From Pocillopora verrucosa (Eukaryota > Cnidaria > Anthozoa > Scleractinia > Pocilloporidae): 64,000 nucleotides of DNA. Where the stretch lies: the NCBI RefSeq assembly GCF_036669915.1, contig NC_089321.1:15367792-15431791 (forward strand), in the 5' to 3' direction. The number at the start of each line of letters is the position of its first letter. Within the stretch, counting starts at the first letter, position 1. The notes under the pieces were generated by a model. The model saw only the letters and a program-made list of their open reading frames with translations. It ran no database searches and was not told the origin of the DNA. Positions 453-64,000 of the stretch are shown here, piece by piece. A program made the translations under genes and the position numbers.

Positions 453-486
453 GGGGTGTCAACGCCCCATTCAAAAGGGTATAAAT
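453..486 (+). promoter_or_regulatory. Core promoter of peptide copy 1 (TATA box and GC hairpin)
   Basis: TATAAAT lies at 480-486, 45 bp before the ATG at 531, so transcription should begin around 510 and leave a very short 5' leader. Just upstream, at 453-468, GGGG and CCCC flank an 8-nt centre. The same arrangement precedes copies 2, 3 and 4 (reverse-strand TATA at 6002-6008, 11382-11388 and 16674-16680). The diverged copy near 20.4 kb keeps the GGGGCG part but has no clear TATA box. Confidence 0.6.
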
Positions 487-530: not shown

Positions 531-988
531 ATGAACAAGCTGCTGTTGATAGCCCTTTTTGGATTGGTGCTCGCTATAGGCTTAGCGCTTTCGTTTGATG
601 ATGATGAAAACAATGAGGCCAGAGGCGATTTAGAGAGGTAAAATGAAACTTTTTTCTTGGTATTCTGTTTTGCCTTTGATAATACGAGTTTTTTTTTTTT
701 TAATGAACTTTATAAATTTGGAATACGGATTCGACAAAACTGATATTTGCTAATCTATTTGACCAAAGTGAGTTCTACTGGAATGGTGAGGAAGAGGACG
801 GAGACGATGAGGAGCCAGAAGAGGAGAGGGAAAAGATAAATGGCTACAGTGTTGAGGAAAAACATGATAAACCCTTATCCGGTCCAATGCAGAAATCAGC
901 CGATCCAATCCTACCTTTCATAGGTTTGCGCCTACTGAGGCGAGCCTTTCGCCGTCGCCGTCGCCGCCGAAGACGGAGATTTGGTTAA
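531..988 (+). CDS. Arminin-like cationic secreted peptide precursor, copy 1
   Basis: Exons 531-637 and 769-988 (GT-AG intron, phase 2) encode 108 residues. Residues 1-20 are a hydrophobic signal peptide (MNKLLLIALFGLVLA...). Residues 23-57 are strongly acidic (D/E runs). The C-terminus from about residue 79 (SADPILPFIGLRLLRRAF) leads into ten arginines, then Phe-Gly-stop. There are no cysteines. A terminal Gly is the usual substrate for peptide amidation. Signal peptide, acidic pro-part and cationic tail are the layout of Hydra arminins, which are antimicrobial; family membership is not proven by sequence and the function is inferred. The ATG is chosen because it starts the signal peptide and is shared by all copies. 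Alternatives are an RFamide-type neuropeptide or another bioactive peptide. Confidence 0.85.
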
Positions 989-1475
989 TTCATCGAAACT
1001 AGTCACAAGGACAGAGATAAGGTGGCTTAAAACGGTAAGAGAACGAAGTGTAAGTTTTCGACGAAAATAGTCTAAGACAGGATTTGGGTGAGATAAAGGC
1101 TTCGCTAAGTTTCTAACTAAGTTATAATAATCGTCCAAAACTTCTTTTATAGGCGTTCGCTTGGGTAATTCGTATATTGCTGCAACCACCGAACTGGGAA
1201 TTTAAAGAAAAATCAAATCATTTTTATGCTCGAACTTTAAACAATTGACAGTTACACTTATTCTAACTTTTTGAATCTTTTGCCTGAAGCATGGGATCTT
1301 TATCTTGCAGGCTTGCAGTAAACTGGAGGAAACAAAGACCTTTTTTCTATTGCTGAGTTTCTTTGCGTTTATATGAACAACGAGTAAAGTTTGAAGGAAC
1401 TAAGTTGAAAACGTTTAATTTACATTTAAATGACACTCTTTGATTTGAATAAAATAAAATGCTTAGCTCAAAATC
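989..1475 (+). other. 3' UTR of peptide copy 1 with a likely intron and poly(A) signals
   Basis: A strong splice donor (AACG|GTAAGA, cut after 1034) lies 46 nt after the stop codon. A matching acceptor (TTATCTTGCAG, exon from 1311) follows, so the 3' UTR is probably split. Overlapping AATAAA signals are at 1448-1453 and 1453-1458. Donor, acceptor and AATAAA are conserved in copies 2-4. They are also present in the diverged copy (reverse-strand donor near 19930, acceptor near 19455, AATAAA at 19311-19316), which argues that they are used. Confidence 0.6.
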
Positions 1476-2236
1476 GTTTGTAGCGTATTTGATTTTCCGC
1501 CAAACAACTCATTCTTCCTTACCAATAAGATTATGGTGATGCTTGCGAGGTCAAGAGTTTTATGTTATCCTCTCATCTTCGTTTCATTTCTTTAAAATTA
1601 CTCTAAAAGAGAAAAAACAAAAAAAAAACAAAAAAATACTCATTCTTACGAAATCCTTAACAAAGGGAACCACACTATCGTCAGGGACTCTGTTCGGTGT
1701 TTTACCTAGAACTTACAGACTCCTCATGAGATAAGTCACCATGAAGAAGTCTTATTTTAGAAATGAATAAGAAAGAAGAAACATGTGTATGGAAGAAAGC
1801 GAGAAAATGATTTTAAACAGCTTCCTTCAATTAGTCAGTTAAACTAGCATGATTTTTTATAAGTGACAGTCGATATTTGCAAGAGACCATCATACTATTC
1901 ATTGTTACTTGATGCACCACAAGGGCATCAAGTAAGGATGTTTTTATACCAAACCATTACCAGTTTTTGGCAATAATTCCAGTGTTTATTTCGTATAACA
2001 TACGAATCAAGTCGTTTTATTTGACGAATCCAAGAGAAGCTGAATAGATTGCCTGTTTTGTGGCCAGGCTATCGATATTAGTTATTTGACCATCGGGAAA
2101 TGAGCAGGTGGATAGAGAAATATATACTCGTCAGGCCGTGCAACTCATTTCTTTTTTCTGGTCGTTTTGCAAGATTATTTCAAATAAAGATGTGCTACTT
2201 TATTAATCAATTAACAAACGCAAAGAAGGCTTATCA
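1476..2236. other. Intergenic part of unit A1
   Basis: No gene is supported here. The stretch includes A-rich runs near 1610-1640 and the inverted-repeat hairpin at 1905-1935. The block around 2055-2100 (GGCTATCGATATTAG core) recurs in diverged form near 21390, 23050 and 24150. Confidence 0.6.
1905..1935. repeat. Perfect 11-bp inverted repeat with 9-nt loop
   Basis: TTACTTGATGC and its exact reverse complement flank ACCACAAGG. The arms are unchanged in A2 (4547-4577), A3 (9923-9953) and A4 (15212-15242), while the loop differs by one base in A4. It lies between the peptide poly(A) site and the sister ORF. Function is unknown. Confidence 0.7.
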
Positions 2237-2502
2237 TCGAATGTACTATTCTTCTTGGCTTTGGTCTGGTTTGTCTTGGCCACAGGCCTTGCTCTTCAAA
2301 GTGACCAAGATGGAAAAACTAGCATGCAAATAATGGAAGCATTTGGAATTCTCAAACACAAAGGCAACGATAGAGTAGATATAAGTATTGATTTAACTTC
2401 AAGACGTCTAAACATAACGAGGAAAGAGAACCTTTGAGAGAGTCGAAGTAAAGAATTGCAATGAATTGGAATAGACACATTAAACAATCTCAGAACAATA
2501 AA
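2237..2502 (+). pseudogene. Start-less sister of the peptide precursor, unit A1
   Basis: An open frame from 2237 to the TGA at 2435-2437 encodes a hydrophobic leader (NVLFFLALVWFVLATGLAL) followed by QSDQDGKTSMQIMEAFGILK and a basic end. The leader aligns without gaps to the start of the cationic precursor, sharing V-L-A-x-G-L-A-L at the same distance from the start. However, the codon at the ATG position is TCG. The nearby ATG at 2241 is in a different frame and gives no signal peptide. AATAAA at 2497-2502 follows the stop. I read it as a paralogue that has lost its start codon, unless an upstream exon supplies an ATG, which I could not find. Confidence 0.55.
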
Positions 2503-3412
2503 CGACACGGGCAAAGAACCCCACCCTTTAAAGCTATAAATGCGTGCACAAACAAACTCTATTGCTTGTCCGCTGGTTTCAAATGAGATATTACTTTTGA
2601 AAACAGTATATTTTTCAACCAGCATGCATTTATAATTTTATTCTTTCTCATTAAATCAAATTCAAAAGTTGAAATTTCCTAAATAAAGAGGTCATTAAGA
2701 TGTTGAGAGCTGTTTCTGAGTTTGGTAAGAGAACCATTGGTAATGCCACTACTGTATCTGTATACAATGTTATAAAAATTTGCTTTTTAGAATGTGTCTT
2801 CTTCGTCTTCTAGATGTAAAGATCTCTGTGAGTTTTATAATGGTCCTTAATTTTGGCTCCAAGTTTGCTTTCGCCAGCCACGATCGTGAAAAACCGTGGA
2901 GTATTCTATATTTAGGTTTATTTTGTGTAACTTAGAATTCAAATACCCCAGCCGGATAAACTATTCGTGGTTTTTGGCCTTATTTTGTTTTCCTTTTCTG
3001 GAGGATTAGTTATTTTATTCGGTATTCGAAAAAAAAAAAAGCGAAATAAGCAAACAGATATATCAACGGATCCGTATCAAATTTATAACATCTAGTCAAC
3101 GAACTCTTTGTAAATTATCCATTAATGAATGGTCAAAAAAAGTTACTTCATTAAACGCAACAGTAGGGAAATGGATAATCTATACTTGTTTCACGAAATT
3201 TCGTCCGTCAGCGATGTCAAAGGAAAATATAGAGATTAGCTCCCTAACTTAGTTATGTTTTCGTTTCGTCGTTAAGATTTATTTCCTTATTGTCAAAATA
3301 AGCCCCACCAATATCACTGACCCTCCACAACATAAGATACAAGTGAGAAACACAAAAAAAGGAGAAAAGATGTAGATCTCAAATGCTATGAGAAATACTC
3401 GTCAATGATTAT
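2503..3412. other. Gene-free end of unit A1 and inversion centre
   Basis: No coding signal is seen. The stretch holds block X (about 2780-3150), which recurs in diverged form inside the B units. It also holds the asymmetric centre of the inverted repeat: about 140 bp (3274-3412) present only on the A1 side. Confidence 0.6.
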
Positions 3413-4059
3413 TCTCAACGACGAAACAAAAACATAACTAAGTTAGGGAGCTACATCTCTATATTTTCCTTTGACATCGCTGACGGACGAAATTTCGTGA
3501 AACAAATATAGATTATCCGTTTCCTTACTGTTGCGTTTAATGAAGTAACTTTTTTTGGCCATTCATCAATGGATAATTTACAAAGAGTTCGTTGACTAGA
3601 TGTTATAATTTTGATACAAAAGCGGGTTGAAGATTTATGAGAGATCTCCTGCTCCTATTGATTCTCTCTAATCATATCTTCGAATACTGAACAAAATAAC
3701 TAATCCTCCAGAAAAAAGGAAACCAAAATAAGGCTAAAAACCACAAATAGTTTATCCGGCTGGGGTATTTGAATTCTAAGTTACACAAAATAAACCTAAA
3801 TATAGAATACTCCACGGTTTTTCACGATCGTGACTGGGGAAAGCAAACTTGGAGCCAAAATGAAGGACCATTAAAAAACTCACAGAGATCTTCACATCTA
3901 GAAGACGAAGAAGACACATTCTAATATGCAAATGTTTATAACATCTTATACAGATGGTGGCATTATCAATGGTTCTCTTACCAAACTCAGAAACAACTCT
4001 CAACATCTTAATGACCTCTTTATTTGGGAAATTTCAACTTTTGAATTTGATTGGTGTTT

Positions 4060-4194
4060 TTATTGTTCTTGGTGTTTGAGTATTCCAAAAGCTTTCATTA
4101 TTTGCATGCTAGTTTTTCCATCTTGGTCACCTTGAAGAGCAAGGCCTGTGGCCAAGACAAGCCAGACCAAAGCCAAGAAGAATAGTGCATTCAA
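4060..4194 (-). pseudogene. Truncated start-less sister ORF, unit A2
   Basis: This has the same leader as the 2237 ORF (LFFLALVW...LATGLALQGDQDGK) but with TTG at the ATG position, and it ends early at a TAA (4060-4062). The cause is the roughly 340-bp deletion that joins it to downstream sequence; a short GGTGTTT repeat sits at the join. Confidence 0.55.
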
Positions 4195-5514
4195 TGATAA
4201 GCCTTCTTTGTGTTTGTTAATTGATTAATAAAGTAGCACATCTTTATTTGAAATAATAGATCGTGCAAAACGATCAAAAAAAGAAACGAGTTTCACGGCC
4301 TGACGAGAAAGTTTATCATTTGTTTTTCAGTTGATACTTGATTTGCCGCACGAAGTATATATTTCTCTATCCACCTGCTCATTTCCCGATGGTCAAATGA
4401 CTAATATCGATAGCCTGGCCACAAAACAGGCAATGTATTCAGTTTCTCTTGGATTCATCAAATACAACGACTTGATTGGTGTGTTACATGAAATTAATAC
4501 TGGAATTATTGCCAAAAACTGGTAATAGTTTCGTATAAAAACATCCTTACTTGATGCCCTTGTGGTGCATCAAGTAACAATGAATAGTATGATGGTCTCT
4601 AGCAAATATATACTTATGTCACTTATAAAAAATCATGTTAGTTTAACTGACTAATTGAAGGAAGCTGTTTAAAATCATTTTCTCGCTTTCTTCCATACAA
4701 CGTTTCTTCTTTCTTATTCATTTCTTAAATAAGGGTTCTTCATGGTGACTTATCTCATGAGGAGTCTGTAAGTTCTAGGTAAAACACCGAGCAGAGTCCC
4801 TGACGATAGTGTGGTTCCCCTTGTTAAGAATTTCATAAGAATGAGTATTTTTCGTTTTTGCTTTTGTTTTGTTTTTTTCTCCTTTAAGGTAAATTTAAAA
4901 AAAATGAAACAAAGATCACAGGATAACATAAAACTCTTGACCTCGCAAGCATCACCATAATCTTATTGGTAAGGAAGAATGAGTTGTATGGCGGAAAATC
5001 AAATACGCTACAAACGATTTTGAGCTAAGCATTTTATTTTATTCAAATCAAAGAGTGTCATTTAAATGTAAATTAAACGTTTTTAACTTAGTTCCTTCAA
5101 ACTTTACTCGTTGTTCATATAAACGCAAAGAAAACTCAGCAATAGAAAAAAGGTCTTTGTTTCCTCCAGATTACAAGATCCTTTTCAAGCCTGCAAGATA
5201 AAGATTCCATGCTTCAGGCAAAAGTTTCAAAAAGTTAGATTAAGTGTAACTGTCAATTTTTTAAAGTTCGAGCATAAAAAAATGATTTGATTTTTCTTTA
5301 AATTCCCAGTTCGGTGGCTGAGCAATACACGAATTACCCAAGCGAACGCCTATAAAAGACAGTTTTGGACGATTATTATAACTTAGTTAGAAACTTAGCG
5401 AAGCCTTAATCTCACCCAAATCCTGTCTTAGACTATTTTCGTCGAAAACTTACACTTCGTTCTCTTACCGTTTTAAGCCACCTTATCTCTGTCCTTGTGA
5501 CTAGTTTCAATGAA

Positions 5515-5957
5515 TTAACCAAATCTCCGTCTTCGGCGGCGACGGCGACGGCGAAAGGCTCGCCTCAGTAGGCGCAAACCTATGAAAGGTAGGATTGGAT
5601 CGGCTGATTTTTGCATTGGACCGGATAAGGGTTTATCATGTTTTTCCTCAACACTGTAGCCATTTATCTTTTCCCTCTCCTCTTCTGGCCCCTCATCGTC
5701 TCCGTCCTCTTCCTCACCATTCCAGTAAAACTCACTTTGGTCAAATAGATTAGCAAATATCAGTTTTGTCGAATCCGTATTCCAAATTTATAAAGTTCAT
5801 TAAAAAAAAAAAACTCGTATTATCAAAGGCAAAACAGAATACCAAAAAAAAAATTGATTTTACCTCTCTAAATCGCCTCTAGCGTCATTGTTTTCATCAT
5901 CATCAAACGAAAGCGCTAAGCCTATAGCGAGCACCAATCCAACAGCAGCTTGTTCAT
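5515..5957 (-). pseudogene. Arminin-like peptide precursor, copy 2, broken by a 13-bp deletion
   Basis: Exon 1 is 5864-5957 and exon 2 is 5515-5734, with intact splice sites. Exon 1 is 94 nt against 107 nt in the other copies. Thirteen bases are missing after the sixth codon, between two TTG triplets, so the frame shifts and meets a stop a few codons later. Exon 2 itself stays open and keeps the acidic segment, the arginine run and the Phe-Gly-stop end. Promoter, donor, acceptor and poly(A) signals (near 5033-5043) also remain, so the break looks recent. An assembly error at this one site cannot be excluded from sequence alone. Confidence 0.8.
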
Positions 5958-6484
5958 CTCGAAGTCTTCTGCGATGATCAATTGTGGATCCAAATGACTT
6001 AATTTATACCCTTTTGAATGGGGCGTTGACACCCCTTTTTTGGTCCTAAATCATGAACAAATTCTAAATATCAGCTGCAAATAGCTGTAATAATATCATG
6101 AGCTGAAAGTATTCGCAAGTACCTCTTGTACGCTTGTAAGCGTCCCGATCAAAACATGATCCCAATGCAGTCTCTCAAGGCCAGGTATTTATAACTACTA
6201 AAAATGTACAACGTTCAATATTTTTCAGTCTTTCTTCTCATGTCTTTCATAACGCGCATTTTGTTTTGGTTGATTTGTGTTCTATATATCACTTTTTGTC
6301 CCCCATATTGTAAGGGAATGTTCTTTACCCTACAAAGAAATCTCCTAGACTCAGCTTAATGTCGAACTAAGTTAAGGTGAAATCAGATTATTAGAGATTT
6401 TCGCGAAAATACTGTATGAAGTGGAGATGTATTTATTCTGTGGAGTTGCAAAGAAAATGGTAGAAATAGCTGTGTTTGACGTCA

Positions 6485-8460
6485 TACATCGTTTCCTAAC
6501 GAGCCTAACTTCTCCGGTTTATTAGTTTTATGACATTATTTTTTAACTTTGTTTTTCTGATACAAATATTGGAATATCAGTTTTCGTTACTTGACAGTGT
6601 TTGTCTCATCTGAAAACTTAGAGACTCCAAACAATATCAATGTTTTTTTTCTGAATACTCCTAAAAAATTCCTCATAATTATTTGAGAAATTACTTTAAT
6701 TACTACACTAAAAGGTAAATAGGGAATTTCAAGACTACACTGCTAACAATACACCATTAAAAGACGTTCACTCTTAAGCTGTACGGTGCATTTCCCATAA
6801 TTGACGCCATTCTTAAAAGAGGAAAATCTAATGATATTTTTGTCACTTGTATATTTTTATTAAACAAAAAAATTATATTGACCTTTAGCCTGATACCCTT
6901 AACGTTTTTCTTACTATTACATTTGACGAAGGAAAGTTTTTGACCATTCGTCGATGGATTTAATGTGCGTCTTTAATGTGCGTCTTTTACTTTTATTTTA
7001 TGTTGGTACATATCTTTGCTTTTTTTTTTCGGATTTTCAAAAATAATTAATCTTAAAAAATAGTAAAACAAAATTTGACCAAAAACCACAAATAATAAAA
7101 ATCCGGCAGCAGTATTTCAATGGTGAGTTACACAAAATAAGCCTAGAAATAGAATACTTGACGGCTTGAATATTATTTCTGACATGGGAATGATGGAGGC
7201 TGCTGAAAATTATAAATGGACAACAAATCACCAATAAATAGATTAGTAATAACATTTTCCCGCTTTCTTCCGATACAACTTAGAAGACGATGAGTTAGAA
7301 TAAGGAAAAACAAATTTTGGAAGTCAGAGTTAAAGTGAAATTTGTCGATCGACCGGCATTCAATTTTATAATCGTAAAAAAATTATTTTTTAAACCCTCA
7401 CGACCCACTAAGGTTACGTACTGAATTTAACTTTAGAGAAAGCATGGAGTTTCTTTTTGGCTTTTTGACATGTAACGACGCAATACATGTGTTGTGTTAA
7501 ATTGTGTCGATATACAATGCAGTCTCCCACTGCCAAGTATGTTAAGAGTTGCTCTGTGTTAGATGCCAAACATCGTTTCCTAATGAGCCTAACTTTTCCG
7601 GTTGATTATGTCTCATCATATCATTTTATGCGTTTTTTTTTTCTGCTAGAAACATCAGAATATCATTTTTCGTTGCTTGACAGTTTTCATCTCATTTAAT
7701 GGCTTAGATACTCGAAACAATATCAAAAATTACCTTTATTTTTAAACATTTACAAAATTTACTCACGCATTTCCTCCGAAATTAACTCAACGTACCGGCT
7801 AGATGCGTATTTCAAGACTACACTGGCTACACTATTTAGGACATTCACTCTCTCTGAGAAGCTGCACGTTGCACTTCCCATAATCGCCGCCTTTCTTAAA
7901 AGAGGAAAATTTAATCATTTATTTGCTAGTTGTATGTGTTTCCTCTCAACAAAATTGTATTGACCTTCAGCTTGATACCCTTGACGTTTCCTATCGCCCT
8001 CTTGACAACGTCTAAACTTATCGGTTATTGCATTGTAAGTGAAGTTTATAAAATATAAATACAACATGCAACTAAGTAATCTTCTCCACCTTTAGGAATC
8101 GGGAGAGTCCTCAGGAAAAACAAATGCATCCTGGTTTTGAATAAACAGTATAATACTTGTTCGCGCAAAGATCTTCGTTCCTCAGTTGTGCGACAGAATT
8201 AGTTACATAATATAAGTGGCAATCGAATATTAAAACGAGGGCAGGGAATTCCATGGAAACGGAAATATCCTTAAAGGTGAGAAAAAATAAAAAGTAACAC
8301 GGAAAAGGAAATGAATGAATAATCATTTACGAGTATTTCTCATAGCATTTGAGATCTACATCTTTTCTCCTTTTTTCGTGTTTCTCACTTGTATCTTATG
8401 TTATGGAGGGTCATTGATATTGGTAGGGCTTATTTTGACAACAAGGAAACGAGTCTCAAC
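6485..8460. repeat. Spacer unit B1
   Basis: This is the first of three B spacers. It has internal structure: block Y' (about 6485-6920) and block Y'' (about 7567-8060) are diverged copies of each other, sharing the CATCGTTTCCTAA and TGAGCCTAACTT cores. Block X' (about 6920-7260) is a diverged copy of unit A sequence at about 3540-3910. No gene is supported; an open frame on the minus strand at 7037-7255 lies in AT-rich block X' and looks fortuitous. Confidence 0.8.
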
Positions 8461-9369
8461 GACGAAACAAAAACGTAACTAAGTTAGGGAGCTACATCTC
8501 TATAATTTCCTTTGACATCACTGACGGACGAAATTTCGTGAAACAACTATAGATTATCCATTTATTTACTGTTGCGTTTAATGAAGTAACTTTTTTTGGC
8601 CATTCATTAATGGATAATTTACAAAGAGTTCGTTGACTAGATGTTATAAATTTGATACAAAAGCGGGTTGAAGATTTATGAGAGATTTCCTACTCCTATT
8701 GATTCTCTCTAATCATATCTTCCTAATATATTTCTTAATCCATCTTTCATAATTATCCGTTGATAAATCTGTTTGCTTATTGCTTTTTTTTTTTTTCGAA
8801 TACTGAATAAAATAACTAATCCTCCAGAAAAAGAAAACAAAATAAGGCCAAAAACCACAAATAGTTTATCCGCCTGGGGTATTTGAATTCTAAGTTACAC
8901 AAAGTAAACCTAAATATAGAATACTCCACGGTTTTTCACGATCATGACTGGCGAAAGCAAACTTGGAGCCAAAATTAAGGACCACAGAGATCTTTACATC
9001 TAGACGACGAAGAAAACACATTCTAATATGCAAATGTTAATAACATTGCATACAGATGGTGGTATTATCAATGGTTCTCTCACCAAACTCAGAAACAGCT
9101 CTCAACATCTTAATGACCTCTTTATTTGGGAAATTTCAAATTTTGAATTTGATTTAATGAAAAAGAATAAAATTATAAATGCGTGCTGGTTGAAAAATAT
9201 ACTGTTTTCAAAAGTAATATCTCATTTGAAACCAACGGACAAGCTATAGAGTTTGTTTGTGCACGCATTTATAGCTTAAAAGGGTGGGGTTCTTTGATCG
9301 TGTCGTCTATTGTTCTGAGATTGTTTAATGTGTCTATTCCAATTCATTGCATTCTTTACTTCGACTCTC

Positions 9370-9570
9370 CTAAAGGTTCTCTTTCCTCGTTATGTTTAGA
9401 CGTCTTGAAGTTAAATCAATACTTATATCTGCTCTATCGTTGCTTTGGTGTTTGAGATTTCCAAAAGCTTCCATTATTTGCATGCTAGTTTTTCCATCTT
9501 GGTCACCTTGAAGAGCAAGGCCGGTGGCCAAGACAAACCAGACCAAAGCAAAGAAGAATAGTGCAGTCAA
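9370..9570 (-). pseudogene. Start-less sister ORF, unit A3
   Basis: The leader (TALFFFALVWFVLATGLALQ) is followed by GDQDGKTSMQIMEAFGNLKH and a basic end, open to the TAG at 9370-9372. The codon at the ATG position is TTG (9568-9570), and an in-frame stop lies upstream with no ATG between. The poly(A) hexamer seen in A1 and A4 is AATAGA here. The preserved reading frame after the leader is notable for an unexpressed copy, but the duplication may simply be young. Confidence 0.5.
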
Positions 9571-10887
9571 TGAGAAGCCTTCTTTGTGTTTGTTAATTGA
9601 TTAATAAAGTAGCACATCTTTATTTGAAATAATAGATCTGCAAAACGATCAGAAAAAAGAAATGAGTTGCACGTCCTGACGAGAAAGTTTATCATTTGTT
9701 TTTCAGTTGATACTTGATTTGCCGCACGAAGTATATATTTCTCTATCCACCTGCTCATTTCCCGATGGTCAAATGACTAATATCGATAGCCTGGCCACAA
9801 AACAGGCAATGTATTCAGTTTCTCTTGGATTCATCAAATACAACGACTTGATTCGTGTGTTGCATGAAAAAAATACTGGAATTATTGCCAAAAACTGGTA
9901 ATAGTTTCGTATAAAAACATCCTTACTTGATGCCCTTGTGGTGCATCAAGTAACAATGAATAGTATGATGGTCTCTAGCAAATATATACTTATGTCACAT
10001 AAAAAATCATGTTAGTTTAACTGACTAATTGAAGGAAGCTGTTTAAAATCATTTTCTCGCTTTCTTCCATACAACGTTTCTTCTTTCTTATTCATTTCTA
10101 AAATAAGGGTTCTTCATGGTGACTTATCTCATGAGGAGTCTGTAAGTTCTAGGTAAAACACCTAGCAGAGTCCCTGACAATAGTGTGGTTCCCTTGTTAA
10201 GGATTTCGTAAGAATGAGTATTTTTCGTTTTTGCTTTGTTTTGTTTTTTTCTCCTTTAAGGTAAATTTTAAAAAAATGAAACAAAGATGACAGGATAACA
10301 TAAAACTCTTGACCTCGAAAGCATCACCATAATCTTATTACTAAGGAAGAATGAGTTGTATGGCGGAAAATCAAATACGCTACAAACGATTTTGAGCTAA
10401 GCATTTTATTTTATTCAAATCAAAGAGTGTCATTTAAATGTAAATTAAACGTTTTTGACTTAGTTCCTTCAAACTTTACTCGTTGTTCATATAAACGCAA
10501 AGAAACTCAGCAATAGAAAAAAAGGTCTTTGTTTCCTCCAGATTACAAGATCCTTTTCAAGCCTGCAAGATAAAGATCCCATGCTTCAGGCAAAAGTTTC
10601 AAAAAGTTAGATTTTGTGTAACTGTCAATTGTTTAAAGTTCGAGCATAAAAAAATAATTAGATTTTTCTTTAGATTCCCAGTTCGGTGGTTGCAACAATA
10701 CACGAGTTACCCAAGCGAACGCCTATAAAAGACAGTTTTGGACGATTATTATAACTTAGTTAGAAACTTAGCGAAGCCTTTATCTCACCCAAATTCTGTC
10801 TTCGACTATTTTCATCGAAAACTTACACTTCGTTCTCTTACCGTTTTAAGCCACCTTACCTCTATCCTTGTGACTAGTTTCGATGAA

Positions 10888-11337
10888 TTAACCAAATCTC
10901 CGTCTTCGGCGACGACGGCGACGGCGAAAGGCTCGCCTCAGTAGGCGCAAACCTATGAAAGGTAGAATCGGATCGGCTGATTTCTGCATTGGACCGGATA
11001 AGGGTTTATCATGTTTTTCTTCAACACTGTAGCCATTTATCTTTTCCTTCTCCTCTTTTGGCTCCTCATCGTCTCCGTCCTCTTCCTCACCATTCCAGTA
11101 CAACTCACTTTGGTCAAATAGATTAGCAAATATCAGTCGACTCCGTATTCCAAATTTGTTAAGTTCATAAAAAAAAAAAATCTCGTATTATTAAAGGCAA
11201 AACAGAATACCAAAAAAAAATTGATTTTACCTCTCTAAATCGCCTCTAGCGTCATTGTTTTCATCATCATCAAACGAAAGTGTCAAGCCTATAGCGAGCA
11301 CCAATCCAAAAAGGGCTATCAACAGCAGCTTGTTCAT
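10888..11337 (-). CDS. Arminin-like cationic secreted peptide precursor, copy 3
   Basis: Exon 1 is 11231-11337 and exon 2 is 10888-11107 (107 and 220 nt, GT-AG intron), encoding 108 residues. It differs from copy 1 at a few positions, for example an L-T-L-S-F leader end, N-D-A for N-E-A, S-E-L-Y-W for S-E-F-Y-W, and P-K-E-E-K-E-K in the acidic segment. The ten-arginine run and Phe-Gly-stop end are unchanged. TATA box 11382-11388 and reverse-strand AATAAA signals at 10405-10415 frame the transcript. The changes fall mainly in the leader and pro-part while the cationic end is constant. Probably secreted and processed; antimicrobial activity is an inference from the layout. Confidence 0.85.
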
Positions 11338-11866
11338 CTCGAAGTCTTCTGCGATGATCAGTTGTGGATCCAAATGACTTAATTTATACCCTTTTGAATG
11401 GGGCGTTGACACCCCTTTTTTGGTCCTAAAACATGAACAAATTCTAAATATCAGCTGCAAATAGTTGTAATAATGTCATGAGCTGAAAGTATTCGCAAGT
11501 ACCTCTTGTACGCTTGTAAGTGTCCCGATCAAAACATGATGCCAATGCAGTCTCCCAAGGCCAGTTATTTATAACTACTAAAAATGTACAACGTTCAATA
11601 TTTTTCACAGTCTTTCTTCTCATGTCTTTCATAAAGCGCATTTTGTTTTGGTTGATTTGTGTTCTATATATCACATTTTGTCCCCCATATTGTAAGTGAA
11701 TGTTCTTTACCCTACAAAGAAATCTCCTAGACTCAGCTTAAAGTCGAACTAAGTTAAGGTGAAATCAGATTATTAGAGAGTTTCGCGAAAATACTGTATG
11801 AAGTGGAGATGTATTGATTCTGTGGAGTTGCAAAGAAAATGGTAGGAATAGCTGTGTTTGACGTCA

Positions 11867-13838
11867 TACATCGTTTCCTAACGAGCCTAACTTCTCCGGT
11901 TTATTAGTTTTATGACATTATTTTTTAACTTTGTTTTTCTGATACAAATATTGGAATATCAGTTTTCGTTACTTGACAGTGTTTATCTCATCTGAAAACT
12001 AAGAGACTCCAAACAATATCAATTTTTTTTTTCTGAATACTCCTAAAAAATTCTTCACAATTATTTGAGAAATTACTTTAATTAGTACACTTAAAGGTAA
12101 ATAGGATATTTCAAGACTACACTGCTAACAATACACCATTAAAAGACGTTCACTCTTAAGCTGTACGGTGCATTTCCCATAATTGACGCCATTCTTAAAA
12201 GAGGAAAATCTAATGATATTTTTGTCACTCGTATATTTTTATTAAACAAAAAAATTGTATTGACCTTTAGCCTGATACCCTTAACGTTTTTCTTACTATT
12301 ATATTTGACGAAGGAAAGCTTTTGACCATTCGTCGATGGATTTAATGTGCGTCTGTTGATTCCCTATTATTTTCATAATATATTTCTTAATTTATCGTTC
12401 ATATTTTTATTTTATGTTCGGATATATCTTTGCTTTTTTTTTCAGATTTTCAAAAGATAATTAATCTTAAAAAATAGTAAAACAAAATTAGACCAAAAAC
12501 CACAAATAATAAAAATCCGGCAGGAGTATTTCAATGGTGAGTTACACAAAATAAGCCTAGAAATAGAATACTTGACGGCTTGAATAGTATTTCTGAGATG
12601 GGAATGATGGAGGCTGCTGAAAATCATAAATGGACAACAAATCACCAATAAATAGATTAGTAATAACATTTTCCCGCTTTCTTCCGATACAACTTAGAGG
12701 ACAATGAGTTAGAATAAGGAAAAACAAAATTTGGAAGTCAGAGTCAAAGTGAGAATTGTCGATCGACCGACATTCAATTTTACAATCGTAAAAAATTATA
12801 TCAAAAAAAAAAGGACGAACAAAAAAAAAAAACATCAGCCATCATTGAATTTCCACTGTGCTTTTAAACCCTCACCACCCACTAAGGTTACGTACTGAAT
12901 TAAACTTTAGAGAAAGCATGGAATTTCTTTATAGCTTTTTGACATATAACGACGCAATACATGTGTTGTGTTAAATTGTGTCGTTATACAATGCAGTCTC
13001 CTACAGCCAAGTATGTTAAGAGTTGCTCTGTGTTAGATGCCATACATCGCTTCCTAATGAGCCTAACTTTTCCGGTTGATTATGTCTCATCATATCATTT
13101 TATGCGTTTGTTTTTCTGCTAGAAGTATTAGAATATCATTTTTCGTCGCTTGACAGTTTTCATCTCATGTAATGGCTTAGATACTCAATATCAAAAATTA
13201 CCTTTATTTTTAAACATTTCCATCATTTCTTCACGCATTTCCTGCGAAATTACCCCAACGTACCGAATAGATGCATGGCGTATTTCAAGACTACACTGGC
13301 TACACCATTTAGGACATTCACTCTCTCTGAGAAGATGCACGTTGCACTTCCCATAATCGCCGCCTTTCTTAAAAGAGGAAAATTTAATCATTTATTTGCT
13401 AGTCGTATGTGTTTCCTCTCAACAAAATTGTATTGACCTTCAGCTTGATACCCTTGACGTTTCCTATCGCCCTCTTGACAACGTCTAAACTTATCGGTTA
13501 TTGCATTGTAAGTTAAGTTTATAAAACATAAATACAACATGCTGCTAAGTAATCTTCTCCACCTTTTGGAATTGGGAGAGTCCTCAGCAAAAAAAATTCA
13601 TCCAGGTTTTGAATAAACAGTATAATACTTGTTCGCGCAAAGATCTTCGTTCCTCAGTTGTGCGACAGAATTGGCTACATAATATAAGTGGCAATCGAAT
13701 ATTAAAACGAGGGCAGGGAATTCCATGGAAACGGGGATATCCTTAAAGGTGAGAAAAGAATAAAAAGCAACACGGAAAAGGAAATGAATGAATAATCATT
13801 GACGAGTATTTCTCATAGCATTTGATATCTACATCTTC
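11867..13838. repeat. Spacer unit B2
   Basis: This unit is a direct repeat of B1 with the same Y'-X'-Y'' blocks. Its right end differs: about 170 bp present at 8350-8540 is missing at 13838, with TTCGTG at the join, so B2 runs straight into A4. No gene is supported; open frames at 12442-12835 (minus) are AT-rich and lack support. Confidence 0.8.
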
Positions 13839-14685
13839 GTGAAACAAATATAGATTATCCATTTCCCTACTGTTGGGTTTAATGAAGTAACTTTCTTTGA
13901 CCATTCATTAATGGATAATTTACAAAGAGTTCGTTGACTAGATGTTATAAATTTGATACGGATGCGGGTAGAAGATTTATGAGAGATCTCCTACTCCTAT
14001 TGATTCCCTCTAATCATATCTTCCTAATATTTCTTAATCCATCTTTCATAATTATCCGTTGATATATCTGTTTGCTTATTTCGCTTTTTTTTTTCGAATA
14101 CCGAATAAAATAACTTATCCTCCAGAAAAGGAAAACAAAATAAGGCCAAAAACCACAAATAATTTATCAGGCTGGGGTATTTGAATTCTAAGTTACACAA
14201 AATAAACCTAACTATAGAATACTCCACGGTTTTTCACGATCGTGGCTGGCGAAAGCAAACTTGGAGCCAAAATTAAGGACCATTATAAAACTCACAGAGA
14301 TCTTTACATCTAGAAGACGAAGAAGACACATTCTAAAATGCAAATGTTTATAACATTGTATACAGATACAGTAGTGGCATTACCAATGGTTCTCTTACCA
14401 AACTCAGAAACTGGTCTCACCATCTTAATGACCTCTTTATTTGGGAAATTTCAACTTTTGAATTTGATTTAATGAGAAAGAATAAAATTATAAATGCATA
14501 CTGGTTGAAAAATATACTGTTTTCAAAAGTAATATCTCATTTGAAACCAGTGGTCAAGCAATAGAGTTTGTTTGTGCACGCATTTATAGCTTTAAAGGGT
14601 GGGGTTCTTTGCTCGTGTCGTTTATTGTTCTGAGATTGTTTAATGTGTCTATACCAATTCATTGCAATCCTTTACTTCGACTCTC

Positions 14686-14886
14686 TCAAAGGTTCTCTTT
14701 CCTCGTTATGTTTAGACGTCTTGAAGTTAAATCAATACTTATATCTACTCTATCGTTGCCTTTGTGTTTGAGAATTCCAAAAGTTTCCATTATTTGCATG
14801 CTAGTTTTTCCATCTTGGTCACCTTGAAGAGCAAGGCCTGTGGCCAAGACAAACCAGACCAAAGCCAAGAAGAATAGTACATTCGA
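14686..14886 (-). pseudogene. Start-less sister ORF, unit A4
   Basis: TCG is at the ATG position (14884-14886), followed by the same hydrophobic leader and GDQDGKTSMQIMETFGILKH, open to the stop at 14686. A reverse-strand AATAAA lies about 60 nt past the stop, as in A1. It is nearly identical to the A1 ORF. Confidence 0.5.
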
Positions 14887-16174
14887 TGATAAGCCTTCTT
14901 TGTGTTTGTTAATTGATTAATAAAGTAGCACATCTTTATTTGAAATAATAGATCTTGCAAAACGATCAGAAAAAAGAAATGAGTTGCACGGCCTGACGAG
15001 TATATATTTCTCTATCCACCTGCTCATTTCTCTATCCACCTGCTCATTTCCTGATGGTCAAATAACTAATATCGATGGCCTGGCCACAAAACAGTCAATG
15101 TATTCAGCTTCTCTTGGATTCGTCAAATAAAACGACTCGATTCGTATGTTGTACGAAATAAACACTTGAATTATTGCCAAAAACTGGTAATGGTTTCGTA
15201 TAAAAACATCCTTACTTGATGCCCTTATGGTGCATCAAGTAACAATGAATAGTATGATGGTCTCTAGCAAATATCGACTGTCACTTATAAAAAATCATGT
15301 TAGTTTAACTGACTAATTGAAGGAAGCTGTTTAAAATCATTTTCTCGCTTTCTTCCATACAACGTTTCTTCTTTCTTATTCATTTCTAAAATAAGACTTC
15401 TTCACGGTGACTTATCTCATGAGGAGTCTGTAAGTTTTAGGTAAAACACCGAACAGAGTCCCTGACGATAGTGTGGTTCCCCTTGTTAAGGATTTCGTAA
15501 GAATGAGTATTTTTCGTTTTTGCTTTGTTTTGTTTTTTCCTCCTTTAAGGTAAATTTAAAAAAATGAAACAAAAATGACAGGATAACATAAAACTCTTGA
15601 CCTCGCAAGCATCACCATAATCTTATTGGTAAGGAAGAATGGGTTGCATGGCGAAAATCAAATACGCTACAAACGATTTTGAGCTAAGCATTTTATTTTA
15701 TTCAAATCAAAGAGTGTCATTTAAATGTAAATTAAACGTTTTTAACTTAGTTCCTTCAAACTTTACTCGTTGTTCATATAAACGCAAAGAAACTCAGCAA
15801 TAGAAAAAAGGTCTTTGTCTCCTCCAGAATACAAGATCCTTTTCAAGCCTGCAAGATAAAGATCCCATGCTTCAGGCAAAAGTTTCGAAAAGTTAGATTT
15901 AGTGTAACTGTCAATTGTTTAAAGTTCGAGCATAAAAAATGATTTGATTTTTCTTTAAATTCCCAGTTCGGTGGTTGCAGCAATACAACAATAGTTACCC
16001 AAGCGAACGCCCATAAAAGAAGTTTTGGACGATTATTATAACTTAGTTAGAAACTTAGCGAAGCCTTTATCTCACCCAAATCCTGTCTTAGACTATTTTT
16101 GTCGAAAACTTACACTTCGTTCTCTTACCGTTTTAAGCCACCTTATCTCTGTCCTTGTGACTAGTTTCGATGAA

Positions 16175-16629
16175 TTAACCAAATCTCCTTCTTCGGCGGC
16201 GACGGCGACGGCGAAAGGCTCGCCTCAGTAGGCGCAAACCTATGAAAGGTAGAATCGGATCGGCTGATTTCTGCATTGGACCGGATAAGGGTTTATCATG
16301 TTTTTCTTCAACACTGTAGCCATTTATCTTCTCCCTCTCCTCTTCTGGCTCCTCATCGTCTCCGTCCTCTTCCTCACCATTCCAATAGAACTCACTTTGG
16401 TCAAATAGATTAGCAAATATCAGTTTTGTCGAATCCGTATTCCAAATTTATAAAGTTCATTTAAAAAAAAACTCGTATCATCAAAGGCAAAACAGAATAC
16501 CAAGAAAAAAGTTTCATTTTACCTCTCTAAATCGCCTCTGGCCTCATTGTTTTCATCATCATCAAACGAAAGCGCTAAGCCTATAGCGAGCACCAATCCA
16601 AAAAGGGCTATCAACAGCAGCTTGTTCAT
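16175..16629 (-). CDS. Arminin-like cationic secreted peptide precursor, copy 4
   Basis: Exon 1 is 16523-16629 and exon 2 is 16175-16394 (107 and 220 nt), encoding 108 residues that are nearly identical to copy 1, including the leader ending G-L-A-L-S-F and the acidic E-E-P-E-E-E-R segment. Ten arginines precede Phe-Gly-stop. TATA box 16674-16680, CRE-like palindrome 17152-17159 and reverse-strand AATAAA signals at 15692-15702 are in place. Its closeness to inverted copy 1 rather than to neighbouring copy 3 suggests that A1 arose from an A4-like unit, or that the two have been homogenised. Confidence 0.85.
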
Positions 16630-19310: not shown

Positions 19311-20431
19311 TTTATTGAAATTAACCACCATCATTTAAAAACATATCATTAAAATTGTTGAATCAGCTTACTACAAATGTTACAGACTCAGCAATAAGAA
19401 AAAGAAGAGTTGTTTCGCTTTCTCCAGATTAAATGATCCTTATCAAGCCTGCAAGGTAACCATTACATACGTTAGACAAATTAAGGTCTAGTTACGTGTA
19501 GTTACTTAAGGTGTAACTACACATAAGAGTGGCTGTTGCCACTACGTCTTAAAAAGATAGATCTTTTAAAAAGAAATTATTCTGGATATTCTGGTGAGAT
19601 AAAGTCCAGTAAGTAAAGCAAGTTTAAAACATAAGAAAAAACGAAAGAAACGTATTTCAAACAGTTCTTCTGACAATTGTTTAGAGTTCGAGCAATAAAT
19701 AATGATTTTTTTTTTTCTCTAAATACCCAGTTCGGTGGTTGTAACCATACACAAATTACTATTGGTGAGGGAGTCGGCAAAGGATGGGAAGGGCCTCTGA
19801 TTTCTTTGATTTAAATTTATGATAAACTATGATACAAAAATGATTCAGTTATTTAGTAGTTTAGCAAAGTCTCTAGTTCACTCAAATCCTGGCTTATAAC
19901 ATCATCTATCTCATGAACTTTTTTCTCTTACCATTTAAAGCCTCCTTATCTCCTTGCGATTGGTCTCAATGCATTAGCCTTGTCTCCTTCGACGACGTCT
20001 TCGGCGGATGCCCAGTGGATTAAGCGAGAAATGACCGTGAAGATTGGATCAGCTGATTTCTGCAGTGGGCCGGACAAGGGTTTATCAGCTTCGCCTTCAA
20101 CGATGTACTTCTCTACTTTTGGCTCATCGTTGTCTTCGTCCTCGTCCTCACTATTCCAGTCGAAGTCACTTTGGTTCAAACGAAAAATATCTCAGTTTTT
20201 CTGAATCTGCATCTATTAAGTGCATCAAAAAACCTACCATAATTCATGGTGCAAAGGATAATAAAGATGATAGAGATTTAAAAATATATTTTGATATATT
20301 TACCTATCTAAATCGTCTCTGACTTCCTTTGTCGCGGTATACTTCGCCTGGTTTTCGTCCTCGTCAGACAAAAATCCCAAGCTTATGGCAAGCATCAAGC
20401 CAAGCAGAGCTTATAAGAGAATCTTGTTCAT
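19311..20431 (-). pseudogene. Ancient diverged copy of the arminin-like peptide gene
   Basis: Exon 1 (20304-20431) and exon 2 (19946-20168) keep the same intron phase, splice sites and start context as copies 1-4. Shared parts are the M-N-K start, an acidic D/E segment and the block DKPLSGPLQKSADPI. Two faults are visible: TAA at codon 7 in the signal peptide, and an apparent one-base loss just before the cationic end. After that loss the exon-2 frame reads acidic residues, while the neighbouring frame still shows an arginine run ending Gly-stop. The 3' intron signals and AATAAA (19311-19316) are also conserved. It shows that the family predates the recent amplification. Without the stop it might be read as a different, acidic paralogue. 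Confidence 0.65.
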
Positions 20432-26505: not shown

Positions 26506-29500
26506 TTAGGCAGGAGGTGGCAGCTGTAAGATTTTCGTTGCAGAAGAGATGGCTTCCGCCACTAACGTCATCTGCTTTTTCACTTCATTTATGTCTCCTT
26601 CTTTATATGCCTGGAACACCCCTGGGAAAGGTAAAGCTGTGCGCGAAAACAAGTGTCGGGATATAAAACTTTCGGAAAGCGTCGAAGAACTGATGAAAGC
26701 CTTCTCAATTTGCACCATTTGATCATTGACCATGCGCACGCGCAATGGATCAGCAGTGTTCAGATTAATTTTTGACTTGGCTCGTTCGAAAGTATGGCTG
26801 GCATTCATAAAGTCATAAATTGCTCTTTGAATGTATTTAGTCGGAAGTGTTTCGCTATGCATTTTTGCGGATAGTACTTCATAGCCGGCTAGTAGAGCAT
26901 TTGCGTAACGCTTGACATCGAATGGTAAAATAGAGATGTCTGACAGTTCTATCAGTAAGCCTCCTTCAAATTTTGTAACAGCCTCGTGAAACTCAAATTT
27001 AGGATCGATGAATGTTTTCATCCAGTAAAAGTTGTCTTCTTGCGTGTGATAGACAGGGTACAGTTCCATTCCAGGCCCATAGAAATAGCTGAAATCGGCA
27101 GAAGGTATCCCCAGATACATATAAAAAGGGAAGTAATCACTGAGAAAAAAGTAAGGTACAACATAGGGCTCGCTGGGATTGTTGGGTGAAGGCATTCTTT
27201 CCACCATTATGTCATACAGGCTTGTTTTATTCCCATGTGCGTTGGGATCTTTGACTTTCTTAGCCCAATCAAATATGGCTGTCGAGAGAAGGGGGCAATT
27301 TTGGGTTGCCAATACGTAATTGCCACCAACGGCCACGTCTGTGTTCAAATAAACAACGGCTCTATCGGATAGAATCTTCTGATTTTGTTCTACCCATTCT
27401 ATTGAGCCAATCAGGCCAAACTCCTCCGCCCCCCAACTACAGAACTTCAAGGTTCGTCGAGGTCTCCATCCTTCTCGAAGCATCTTGCTGACAGCGCGCG
27501 ATATTTCCAATAGAGCTGCGGTGCCACTCGAAGGGTCAGCGGCTCCCAAAAACCAAGCATCTCGATGACTGCCGATTAATACGTATCTGTCTGGTTCCTC
27601 ACGACCATAAATTGTTCCAATAACATTATAAATGGATTTTATTTCTACTGCGTTATTAACATGAAGTCGCGCGGTGCTGTTAGGCGTCCGAAAACCAGGA
27701 CCAAATCCAAAAGAAAATTTTAGAGCTCCTTGCCAATCTCTGGGAACAGGATTCCCTGCAAATCAAACAAACCCTTAAGATTTTTCATAAAACCGAATGA
27801 AAATGATTTTCTCCAATTGAAATCAGGATGGAAAGGGAAAGAAAACATTCATTCGCATAAAAACAACAACAATAACAAAAACAAACAAAACTAAACAAGA
27901 CCTCATAAAAACAGAGGGCGTTTTGAAAATCACTGCATTAAGGAGGTCACGTACGAGCTTCAAAAACAAAGTGGAAGAAAAGTTTTCGCTAACATAAATG
28001 CTTGTGACCGGTGATCAAAATTTTAATAACTCCAAAAGGGATTAACAATACACAAAAAATATTGTCTTTTTCTCTTTTCTATATTATTTGTGTTACCTCA
28101 AGAACTAAATTTGAATATGAAAAAAAGGTGGGTATCCTAGTGAAAGTTCTAGTTTAGACAAAATATACATTTACCAGTCACCTTCCTAGAGACGATGCAC
28201 AGTTAGTTTCTTTATTTAAATACCGTTTCTCTAACCTCGAAGCTGTTTCAGCAATACCAGAGCATCGTTGTAGGAGATGGGCTGTGATGGTATTATTCCG
28301 AAAGCAGTCATATTTCTGGCACCTCGGTACAACCCGTCAATAGATGGAATCTCGGGAGTGCGCGAGTCACCCCAATTTGTGGCCACTGTTTTTTCGAATA
28401 CAGCGTCACCAGAGATCTTTGATGTGTAAGGGTAGGTATTATTTGGTCTGGATGAGTGCACGTCTGGAAATATTAGTGCTCCAACAGCACCAAGTCTGGC
28501 CGCCAGGTGAATCTTTCATGAATGTGGAAATATATTTTAGAATATTAACGTAAAGAAATGGGCATTGCATGATATAACATCAGATTATTCCCATAAACTA
28601 TCAAATAAATTACAACTTTTAGTGTTTGTCCCTTAAAAATCACCTGAAACAAGTTTTATTTCTGAGAATTAATTTTTGACTGGACGTGGTCTTTAGTACG
28701 TTACCTGACAAAAAGGCTTTTGTTTTAGCGATTTTAACCACGAGGTCGAAAAAAATATTTATCACTTACCTGTGCTTGAATTCCTCTTGCGATGACAATT
28801 TTGTTTGTTAAAGACACATTGTTATGGTTGAGAAGAGCGATGTCAGCCTTAGATCCTTTATTAATGTATACAAGTTCACCCTCAACAGTTCCGTTTGGTG
28901 AGTAAGCAAAATACGGAAAATGGTCAAATGCTTTCGTTGCAGTAGGCTCAGGTTTTGCCTGCAAAAACAATGAAAAAAAAAATGGCGATACTCGTTGTGA
29001 GTAGCGTTCGAGGCGGTTCTACTTATTAAAACTGCTAGACATTCCCGCAACCCGGGAAAAGGTTTGCAGGGGATCACACAGTGTTAAACCCATTGTAGAC
29101 TTCTCGCCGCCTCGCGTTGCCCAAGCCGTCGTTCATAAAAGGCAATGTACAAAGAGCAGTACGGAGAACACACACGCTAATTTTAAGGTGTAACGAGTTA
29201 CTTGCTTGTTTTGTTTTGTTTTTTTGCATGTATGTACTATCCAAGAAAAGCCCATGGTAATTGTTAATCTCCAGTAGACCTCCTACCTTAATTTTCCCTG
29301 TAATTGTATGAGCGATAGTCCCGTTCACAACAATTTCTACTTTGTTTGGATTGTTCTCCTGAGGGAGAGAGAGTGGCACTTTGTACTCCGGCATTTCTAC
29401 TGCATCAAACCCATACGTCCTCCAATTTTCTGCGATATGTTCAGCAAGGTCACGCTGACGCTGCGATCCAGCCATGTGAGGCTCGGAAGTAATAAACCTG

Positions 29501-35246: not shown

Positions 35247-35756
35247 TTATTCTTCGTTGCTGGTTTTTTCGAAGTGTTTAACTATGGCGGCCAATATCCT
35301 CTTGGTCCGTGTGACTCGTGGTGTCTTCGCCGATGAAGTTGTTAGTGGATTAGACAATATGGCGACTAGTCCTCTTTTTCCAAACCTTGTGTACAGTTTG
35401 TGAAGTTCATCGTAAGAGAGACCACTGTCAGCGATGTTTTGTGCCATTGATCTTTTAATTGGTCCGGTGTCGGTTACGTTGAACAAGTTATCACTGAATG
35501 TTAGAAGAAGTTCGTGGCGTTGATCTAGGTAGAGCATGTTTGCCACTGCGTGGGGAGCACTGATGACACTGGAATTCTCAATTATGTTTTTCCTGGAGAG
35601 GCTTAATGACGATTCAAAAAGAATTTTTCTCAGCGCCCTGACATCCTCTAAAGCATCATGGGCGTCAAATTGTTCCTTGAACAAATGGTTATAAATGCTT
35701 CTTTGGTTTGGTTTGCTGTATGATTCATTGTTGGTACATTCATTGTAGAGAGTAAA
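35247..35756 (-). pseudogene. C-terminal part of a DEDDh-type exonuclease-like protein
   Basis: An open frame of 169 residues to the stop at 35247 begins directly after an in-frame TAA, with no ATG that would give a whole domain. Near its start, FDAHDALEDVRALRKIL carries the H-x(4)-D end of the DEDDh 3'-5' exonuclease fold. A helical tail follows, with MAQNIADSGLSYDELHKLY and TPRVTRTKRILAAIVKHF. The earlier exonuclease motifs (first Asp-x-Glu and second Asp) are absent, so only the last third of the domain is here. It could be the last exon of a gene whose other exons I cannot see, or a remnant of a dispersed multicopy gene. No splice acceptor is clear upstream. Confidence 0.5.
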
Positions 35757-63520: not shown

Positions 63521-63606
63521 CTGATGAAATGATGTAAGTAAGGATGAAATTTACCTTATCCCACCGTAGGGCTCTGTAAAATTCTAATAATCCTTTCCCC
63601 CAGTAA

Positions 63607-63654
<48 letters not shown>

Positions 63655-64000
63655 ATCTTTTAACGACGGCTGATCCTTGTTATGTTCCCCTTGTAAACTA
63701 TGTGATACACCTAATATCCCCCCAGGCGATCGGAAAATGACTGGTCCGTAGGTAATCACATCCTGTAGCTGGTGGCTATAAAAAGTTTAGAATATCATGA
63801 ACCTAAATAAAGGGAACATGATTTAGACCTAGAACCTCGTTTAATTATATGTTATCACTCATATTTCTACGTGCGCGAGCCCCTTAAAATTGCTTTGAGC
63901 CCTTGATATGTGTCATAAGACTTCGAAAATTTCATCTCGAGGCTAGAAGTAAAGACAGTATTTTGATTTAACTAAAAGCAAAAAGCTAAGCGCTTGGAAC
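63521..64000. other. Intron at the right edge
   Basis: No further EGF exon or other exon is visible on either strand apart from the TA microsatellite. It is presumed to be intron of the minus-strand EGF gene. Confidence 0.5.
63610..63649. repeat. (TA)n microsatellite
   Basis: About 20 TA repeats in the intron upstream of the last visible EGF exon of the minus-strand gene. Confidence 0.95.

Follow-up and report, generated by a model that had tools for sequence, protein, structure and literature searches.

A 64-kb stretch of the genome of the coral Pocillopora verrucosa (C10:15367792-15431791, hereafter the window) carries a cluster of two-exon genes for secreted precursors with a run of consecutive arginines at the C-terminal end. 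These poly-arginine genes belong, as one branch, to a broader arginine-rich family on one chromosome. The gene family is real, partly intact, constrained, and larger and more structured than an earlier note on this DNA had described. On balance, we think that in this anthozoan a lineage-specific multigene family probably encodes cationic host-defence peptides with an amidated C-terminus, whose expression, processing, and activity we infer. Among the evidence for this view are the shared anatomy of the precursors, the near-constant Gly-stop ending, and the maintenance of the arginine run.

Poly-arginine genes in the window

The earlier note had described four near-identical two-exon genes, three of them intact, and the exons lie where it had placed them: c1, c3, and c4 are intact, and c2 is broken. 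These four belong to group I-A. To them we add a fifth, divergent, broken copy (c5, group I-B) at 20431-19974 on the minus strand, with a DNA identity of ~65%. The exons and related elements, in window positions, are as follows.

480..486, plus strand: TATA box TATAAAT of c1; the same box stands 5' of all eight group I-A copies that retain exon 1 and is lost in c5
531..637, plus strand: c1 exon 1, with the signal peptide and the start of the acidic pro-region; donor AG/GTAAAA
769..988, plus strand: c1 exon 2, with the acidic pro-region, the DKPLSGPMQKSADP block, and the cationic R10 tail, then FG-stop
5864..5957, minus strand: c2 exon 1, broken by a 13-base deletion within the signal peptide
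5515..5734, minus strand: c2 exon 2, open; R10-FG-stop
11231..11337, minus strand: c3 exon 1, intact
10888..11107, minus strand: c3 exon 2, intact; R10-FG-stop
16523..16629, minus strand: c4 exon 1, intact
16175..16394, minus strand: c4 exon 2, intact; R10-FG-stop
20304..20431, minus strand: c5 exon 1, with a stop (TAA) at codon 7 that is common to both other I-B copies of the genome
19974..20168, minus strand: c5 exon 2, with the conserved DKPLSGPLQKSADPI block and R8-Q-G-stop in another frame
2240..2434, plus strand: group IV-like leader relic ~1.25 kb 3' of c1; leader start without ATG, no second exon seen
~4194-4060, 9570-9373, and 14883-14689, minus strand: further group IV-like leader relics, one beside each poly-Arg unit, with neither an ATG nor a second exon

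The signal peptide, the acidic pro-region, and the cationic tail with ten consecutive arginines (R10) that the earlier note had pointed out are all present, R10 being found in c1 to c4. The precursors of c1, c3, and c4 comprise 108 residues each; the c1 and c4 proteins are identical, and c3 departs from both at five residues (19, 29, 38, 53, and 56). The introns of c1 to c4 are of the GT...AG type and 123-131 bases long, a TATA box stands ~50 bases 5' of each ATG, and the R10 run is written in mixed codons. Across the six frames of the window, Arg runs of six or more residues were found as four R10 (c1 to c4), one R8 (c5), and four R7 antisense of four copies, and nowhere else. The copies c2, c3, and c4 form head-to-tail units of ~5.3 kb each on the minus strand, and c1 is an inverted unit.

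Besides the early stop, the c5 copy has an R8-Q-G-stop tail that lies in a frame other than that of the conserved middle block. Two I-B sister copies outside the window keep this tail in frame with the block, which indicates that the ending composed of poly-Arg, one residue, Gly, and stop predates the split between I-A and I-B.

Extent of the family in the genome

The genome searched comprises 353 Mb in 52 contigs, and the family counts are lower bounds. Matches were taken to an E value of 0.001 in the first genome search, with c1 exon 2, and to an E value of 10 in the later ones. The amplification proposed in the earlier note was found to extend well past the window, with 12 poly-Arg copies in 82 kb and the wider family in 332 kb. 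Exon 2 of c1 gave 12 matches at E ≤ 0.001, all within C10:15306033-15387961, and seven of these copies are intact. This group I is made up of nine I-A copies (seven intact, c2 broken, and A4 without exon 1) and three I-B copies, all of which carry the same stop at codon 7. No exon 1 is present within 520 bases 5' of exon 2 in A4; at the expected site there is a tRNA-Thr(GGT)-like sequence (L004, 1939-2011), perhaps a tRNA-derived short repeat.

The group I leader exon alone gave six more weak matches on C10 (E 0.18-0.50), each from residue 1, and one match on C12 (E 2.4), which is the single match off C10 in the leader searches with E values up to 10. With the leaders of groups I, II, IV, and V as queries, at least 28 leader loci were found in C10:15055989-15388222, with 11 in group I, 4 in group II, 1 in group III, 7 in group V, and 5 in group IV. 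This count takes in one 23-residue fragment as well as leaders that carry a stop or lack a start, and it leaves out the five group IV-like relics beside group I, the fifth of which is located at C10:15323402.

At least 21 second exons are readable (12 in group I, 3 in II, 2 in III, and 4 in V), and a further one, that of L034 (V), is cut short. The sole second-exon match listed outside the family stretch of C10 is on C8 (E 0.85). With the second exon of group V as the query, nine group I copies were matched (E 0.010-0.28), which supports common descent of exon 2.

Twelve genes are intact, with GT-AG splice sites and a reading frame that is open from the ATG to the stop codon: seven in group I, L022 and L027 in group II, L026 in group III, and L032+L029 and L035 in group V. 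Their products range from 104 to 165 residues. Broken members outside group I are L028, with a stop in its leader; L030 and L031, in which the end of exon 1 carries a stop and is disrupted, respectively; and L034. For L023, L033, L036, L024, L025, and L037, no second exon was found within 2-2.5 kb downstream of the leader. Three of these (L024, L025, and L037, at C10:15080935, 15105124, and 15142281, minus strand) are group IV leaders, in which the stretch before the ATG differs and the examined piece contains no second exon; the sequence downstream was examined for these three of the five group IV leaders.

Shared anatomy of the precursors

Groups I, II, III, and V agree in how their exons are arranged, in the phase of the intron, and in the type of leader. 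In their intact members the leader starts with MN(R/K/S)xLL (MSRFLL in L035), the intron is of phase 2 and interrupts a Ser codon (AG/T), and exon 2 starts with S(D/E)(F/L/I); in the broken L028 it starts with SEY. Signal peptides were judged by their hydrophobic core and the -3/-1 rule. The acidic pro-region up to the boundary has a net charge of -9 to -18 in these intact members (about -18 in group I), and the arginine-rich tail has a net charge of +13 to +28 across the groups (about +13 in group I). This charge split between acidic part and cationic tail is seen in all four groups. The boundary between the two has the form xDP, with the variants SADP, SSDP or LSDP, AEDP, and SPDP across the groups. 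Each precursor has one tail, and the acidic part precedes it in all 12 intact genes.

Identity between groups amounts to 48-76% in the signal peptides, 26-51% in the pro-parts, and 39-61% in the tails, the last being raised by the shared Arg. The seven intact group I precursors contain no cysteine, in agreement with the cysteine-free character given in the earlier note. A3, an intact I-A copy outside the window, has a His within its Arg run (R8-H-R).

The motif GACTTCG stands directly 5' of the ATG in groups I, III, and V and in part of group II (GTCTTCG in L027, GACTTAA in L028), TATA-like boxes lie 5' of groups I, II, and V, and AATAAA is found 438-472 bases past the stop in seven of seven intact I-A genes.

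Gly followed by a stop ends 20 of the 21 readable second exons (that of c5 out of frame with its block). The endings are FG in nine and QG in three copies of group I, WG, CG, and KG in group II, RG in two exons of group III, and NG in three of group V. The Gly is thus constant and the residue before it variable, a pattern that is in keeping with an amidated peptide and tells against a receptor ligand of the RFamide kind. Because the groups share ancestry, a binomial estimate for these endings serves as a rough guide only. From these endings, the terminal Gly is a putative amidation signal that would be converted to an amide.

One intact group V gene (L035, C10:15216441-15218541) has a 71-residue Gly/Arg-rich tail and may have shifted to another function.

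Selection and variation

For the seven intact I-A genes together, the ratio of the proportions of nonsynonymous and synonymous differences (pN/pS) is 0.23. The values for the separate parts are 0.36 for residues 1-22, 0.22 for residues 23-69, 0.08 for residues 70-84 (KPLSGPMQKSADPIL), which are the most constrained part of I-A, 0.35 for residues 85-97 (PFIGLRLLRRAFR), and 0.18 for residues 98-108 (nine Arg and FG). In the nine I-A copies (seven full genes and the second exons of two broken copies), 28 codons vary, 14 of them silently. The constant cationic end and varying leader and pro-part described in the earlier note hold within the window, but the contrast is not significant among the nine copies, where amino acid changes fall on 11 of the 69 codons that precede residue 70 and on 3 of 39 from residue 70 onward (Fisher p 0.37).

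When I-A and I-B are aligned from the stop, six of eight Arg codons differ, and all seven base changes are silent, which has a probability of ~5e-4 if one third of changes are silent by chance. The change in the Gly codon is also silent. Amino acid differences between the two branches are found at the position preceding the Gly and at the two positions that lead into the shared Arg block. Silent codon changes have left the run of arginines in place.

Comparison with known systems

No known family was recognized in the earlier note, and the libraries searched (Pfam, PDB, viral, and prokaryotic) gave no match at cut-off. The best Pfam match of group I was FAM176 (E 0.046), below the curated cut-off, and three group II/III proteins gave one Pfam match (E 0.14), also below cut-off. 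No PDB chain was found at E ≤ 1. Viral contigs and prokaryotic genome contigs, collections that hold no animals, gave no relatives at E ≤ 1e-3. Four sequence fragments of the family were not found in open-licence papers, and the open-licence literature searched contained no described coral poly-Arg family. We know of no description, for any coral, of poly-arginine peptides that form a family and carry an amidation signal.

The earlier note had likened the genes to the arminins of Hydra. The likeness of layout stands; membership in the family is not borne out, since BLASTP of the group I precursor against the mature peptide of arminin 1a gave no alignment at E ≤ 100. Arminins are described with a signal peptide, an acidic N-terminal part, a cationic C-terminal part, and clustered paralogues, and with a C-terminal Gly that is thought to be amidated, as in the 20/21 second exons here (PMC12013895, PMC10945409, PMC4820302). 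Arminins are, however, reported to be confined to the genus Hydra (PMC10945409), whereas this genome encodes an Antho-RFamide precursor of anthozoan type. Arminin 1a has a mixed tail (PMC12011183), in contrast with the Arg runs of 8-10 in group I. Arminins are reported to have a conserved acidic and a poorly conserved cationic part; in I-A no significant contrast of this kind is seen (11/69 versus 3/39, as above).

The Antho-RFamide precursor, which agrees with the cnidarian origin proposed in the earlier note, is located on C9 and consists of QGRFGRED repeats (five matches in one 327-aa frame, best E 8e-7). Antho-RFamide neuropeptides come as many repeated QGRFG copies in one precursor, whereas the precursors described here have one tail each. 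Antho-RFamide precursors have been described in sea anemones, stony corals, and relatives (PMC7523074), which makes an anthozoan source of this genome most likely.

Three further systems share part of the layout. The placozoan AMP1-AMP4 of Trichoplax have a signal peptide, a highly acidic N-terminal part, and a basic C-terminal part with Gly; they are called arminin-like by features and not by homology, are compared here by description, and are ~150-250 aa long versus 104-165 for the intact genes (PMC12013895). Damicornin, from the coral Pocillopora damicornis, also combines a signal peptide, an acidic pro-region, and a cationic amidated C-terminal peptide, but its peptide carries six cysteines, joined in three bridges, and is set off from the pro-region by a dibasic cut site (PMC4306955); group I has neither a cysteine nor a dibasic site at this boundary. 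The myticalins of Mytilus are Arg-rich, linear, and cysteine-free, with consecutive Arg in subfamily C, amidation predicted at least in subfamilies A and B, and hyperdiversity with pseudogenes (PMC12294457). In these mollusc peptides, which are likened here by description, the acidic extension is C-terminal behind a dibasic site (PMC12294457), whereas here the acidic part precedes the tail.

We do not file the family as a member of the arminins, the placozoan arminin-like peptides, or damicornin, alike as the layout is. In our best reading, the family is undescribed and, judged by its anatomy, would work in the manner of the arminins, a likeness that need not mean homology.

Proposed mechanism and alternative explanations

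A host-defence role for the poly-Arg family is a reasonable inference, and a series of steps can be proposed for it. The signal peptide, which is seen as sequence, would take the precursor into the secretory pathway, with cleavage predicted near ALS/FDD. The acidic pro-region would shield the cationic tail in storage, as the group I charges of about -18 and +13 suggest. The pro-region would then be removed near the xDP boundary or at neighboring acidic residues, so that the group I tail would start near ILPFIG. A cut after the Asp of xDP predicts tails that begin with Pro in the four groups (PILPF; PKWRK or PEWRK; PKSRK or PKLRK; PRVPR). In cnidarian precursors, acidic residues are described N-terminal to the peptides, where processing has been proposed (PMC7523074). 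Amidation at the terminal Gly, which the endings of 20/21 second exons suggest, would follow. In the last step, which is the weakest, the released polycation may bind anionic bacterial or symbiont surfaces, and the hydrophobic stretch of group I may aid insertion or crossing. Tandem and inverted duplication, copy loss, and divergence of the tails between groups would give rise to a mixed peptide set. Antimicrobial peptide genes of Hydra are reported to be clustered, tandemly duplicated, and lineage-restricted (PMC10945409).

An AlphaFold2 model of c1 exon 2 contains one helix (exon-2 residues 49-65), which takes in the hydrophobic stretch together with the first arginines.

Several observations weigh against amidated host-defence peptides. 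The modeled helix is of low confidence (mean predicted local distance difference test score 64.7) and comes from one sequence, and the hydrophobic moment of the stretch is not above that of shuffles, 16% and 26% of which are as high at the two lengths used. Since the stretch is no more amphipathic than shuffles, binding by charge is better supported than neat insertion of an amphipathic helix. The boundary between pro-region and tail is without a dibasic site of the kind present in damicornin. Prohormone convertases would be expected to cut at the many Arg pairs of the tail, so that a long poly-Arg peptide might not persist. The intact L035 ends in NN and not in Gly, and Cys is present in the tails of L027 (group II) and of the second group III exon. 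The matches of group V to group I are weak, and charged composition may contribute to them. The pair counts pooled for pN/pS lack independence, and gene conversion could reduce divergence or give the look of constraint. I-A changes slowly, and its tail changes no faster than its pro-part, unlike reported arminins. Finally, the case for expression, for a mature peptide, and for activity is built from sequence, which we also count against it.

Two alternatives concern the identity of the mature product. The Arg run could be a tract for processing or trimming, with the conserved middle segment (DKPLSGPMQKSADPI and the hydrophobic stretch) as the mature product of group I. The strong constraint on residues 70-84 in I-A (pN/pS 0.08) and the near identity of the block in I-B agree with this, and Arg pairs are known as convertase sites. 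We regard it as unlikely: groups II, III, and V show just the short xDP part of the block, yet they keep Arg-rich tails and mostly the Gly-stop, and a dispensable tract should not retain eight Arg codons via silent changes only, or a terminal Gly. The genes could instead encode signalling precursors, such that amidated neuropeptides or hormones, e.g., a group I product ending in RRF-amide, act on receptors as RFamides do. A signal peptide, Gly-stop, upstream acidic residues, and, in group I, the RF before the Gly would suit such a role, and an Antho-RFamide precursor is present in the same genome. We give this only a small chance, given that the position ahead of the Gly is occupied by F, Q, W, C, K, R, or N depending on the member, which leaves no fixed receptor-type ending and lowers the case for RFamide neuropeptide identity in particular. 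Moreover, a tail charge of +13 to +28 is, in our judgement, unusual for a neuropeptide. The single tail per precursor differs from the many Antho-RFamide repeats, although single-copy precursors are described there too (PMC7523074).

The remaining alternatives concern the site and the reality of function. A component of nematocysts or gland cells, either a venom peptide or a polycation that packs with an anionic capsule matrix, is a doubtful candidate in place of a defence peptide. Multigene secreted precursors with an acidic pro-part and a cationic tail are suited to venom peptides as well, and capsules contain poly-gamma-glutamate. Weakly against this stand the lack of Cys in the seven intact group I precursors and the lack of a Pfam match at cut-off or a PDB match. 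That the genes are chance reading frames or a functionless decaying array is highly improbable. The broken c2, A4, three I-B copies, L028, L030, L031, and L034, together with leaders without a second exon in the examined piece, would be expected of a decaying array; against it stand the 12 intact genes with matching splice sites, the TATA-like boxes of groups I, II, and V, the AATAAA of all seven intact I-A genes, the silent changes in the Arg run, and the overall pN/pS of 0.23.

Other features of the window

Two copies of a peptidase M28 gene lie at 26506-29526 and 39066-42476 (minus strand); they are ~90% identical over 1.18 kb, have a transferrin-receptor-like dimerisation domain, and are presumably of the glutamate carboxypeptidase II type. 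An open frame at 35247-35756 (minus strand) matches the PML C-terminal domain (E 2.4e-11). EGF-like exons were found at 52826-53170 (plus strand, by Pfam match) and at 63384-63659 (minus strand, by eye), and a long low-complexity purine/pyrimidine tract with internal repeats occupies 59936-60332.

Implications

Legumes govern rhizobia with cationic peptides. It is conceivable, if a long shot, that the coral likewise holds an arsenal of natural amidated, cell-penetrating poly-Arg peptides derived from one founder, with group-specific tails for different partners (bacteria, fungi, and algal symbionts) and a role comparable to that of the peptides between legumes and rhizobia.

The family poses the question of whether the arminin layout outside Hydra arose by descent or by convergence. 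If expressed, the 12 intact genes would provide a defined set for tests of anthozoan control over the microbiome and perhaps also over the algae.

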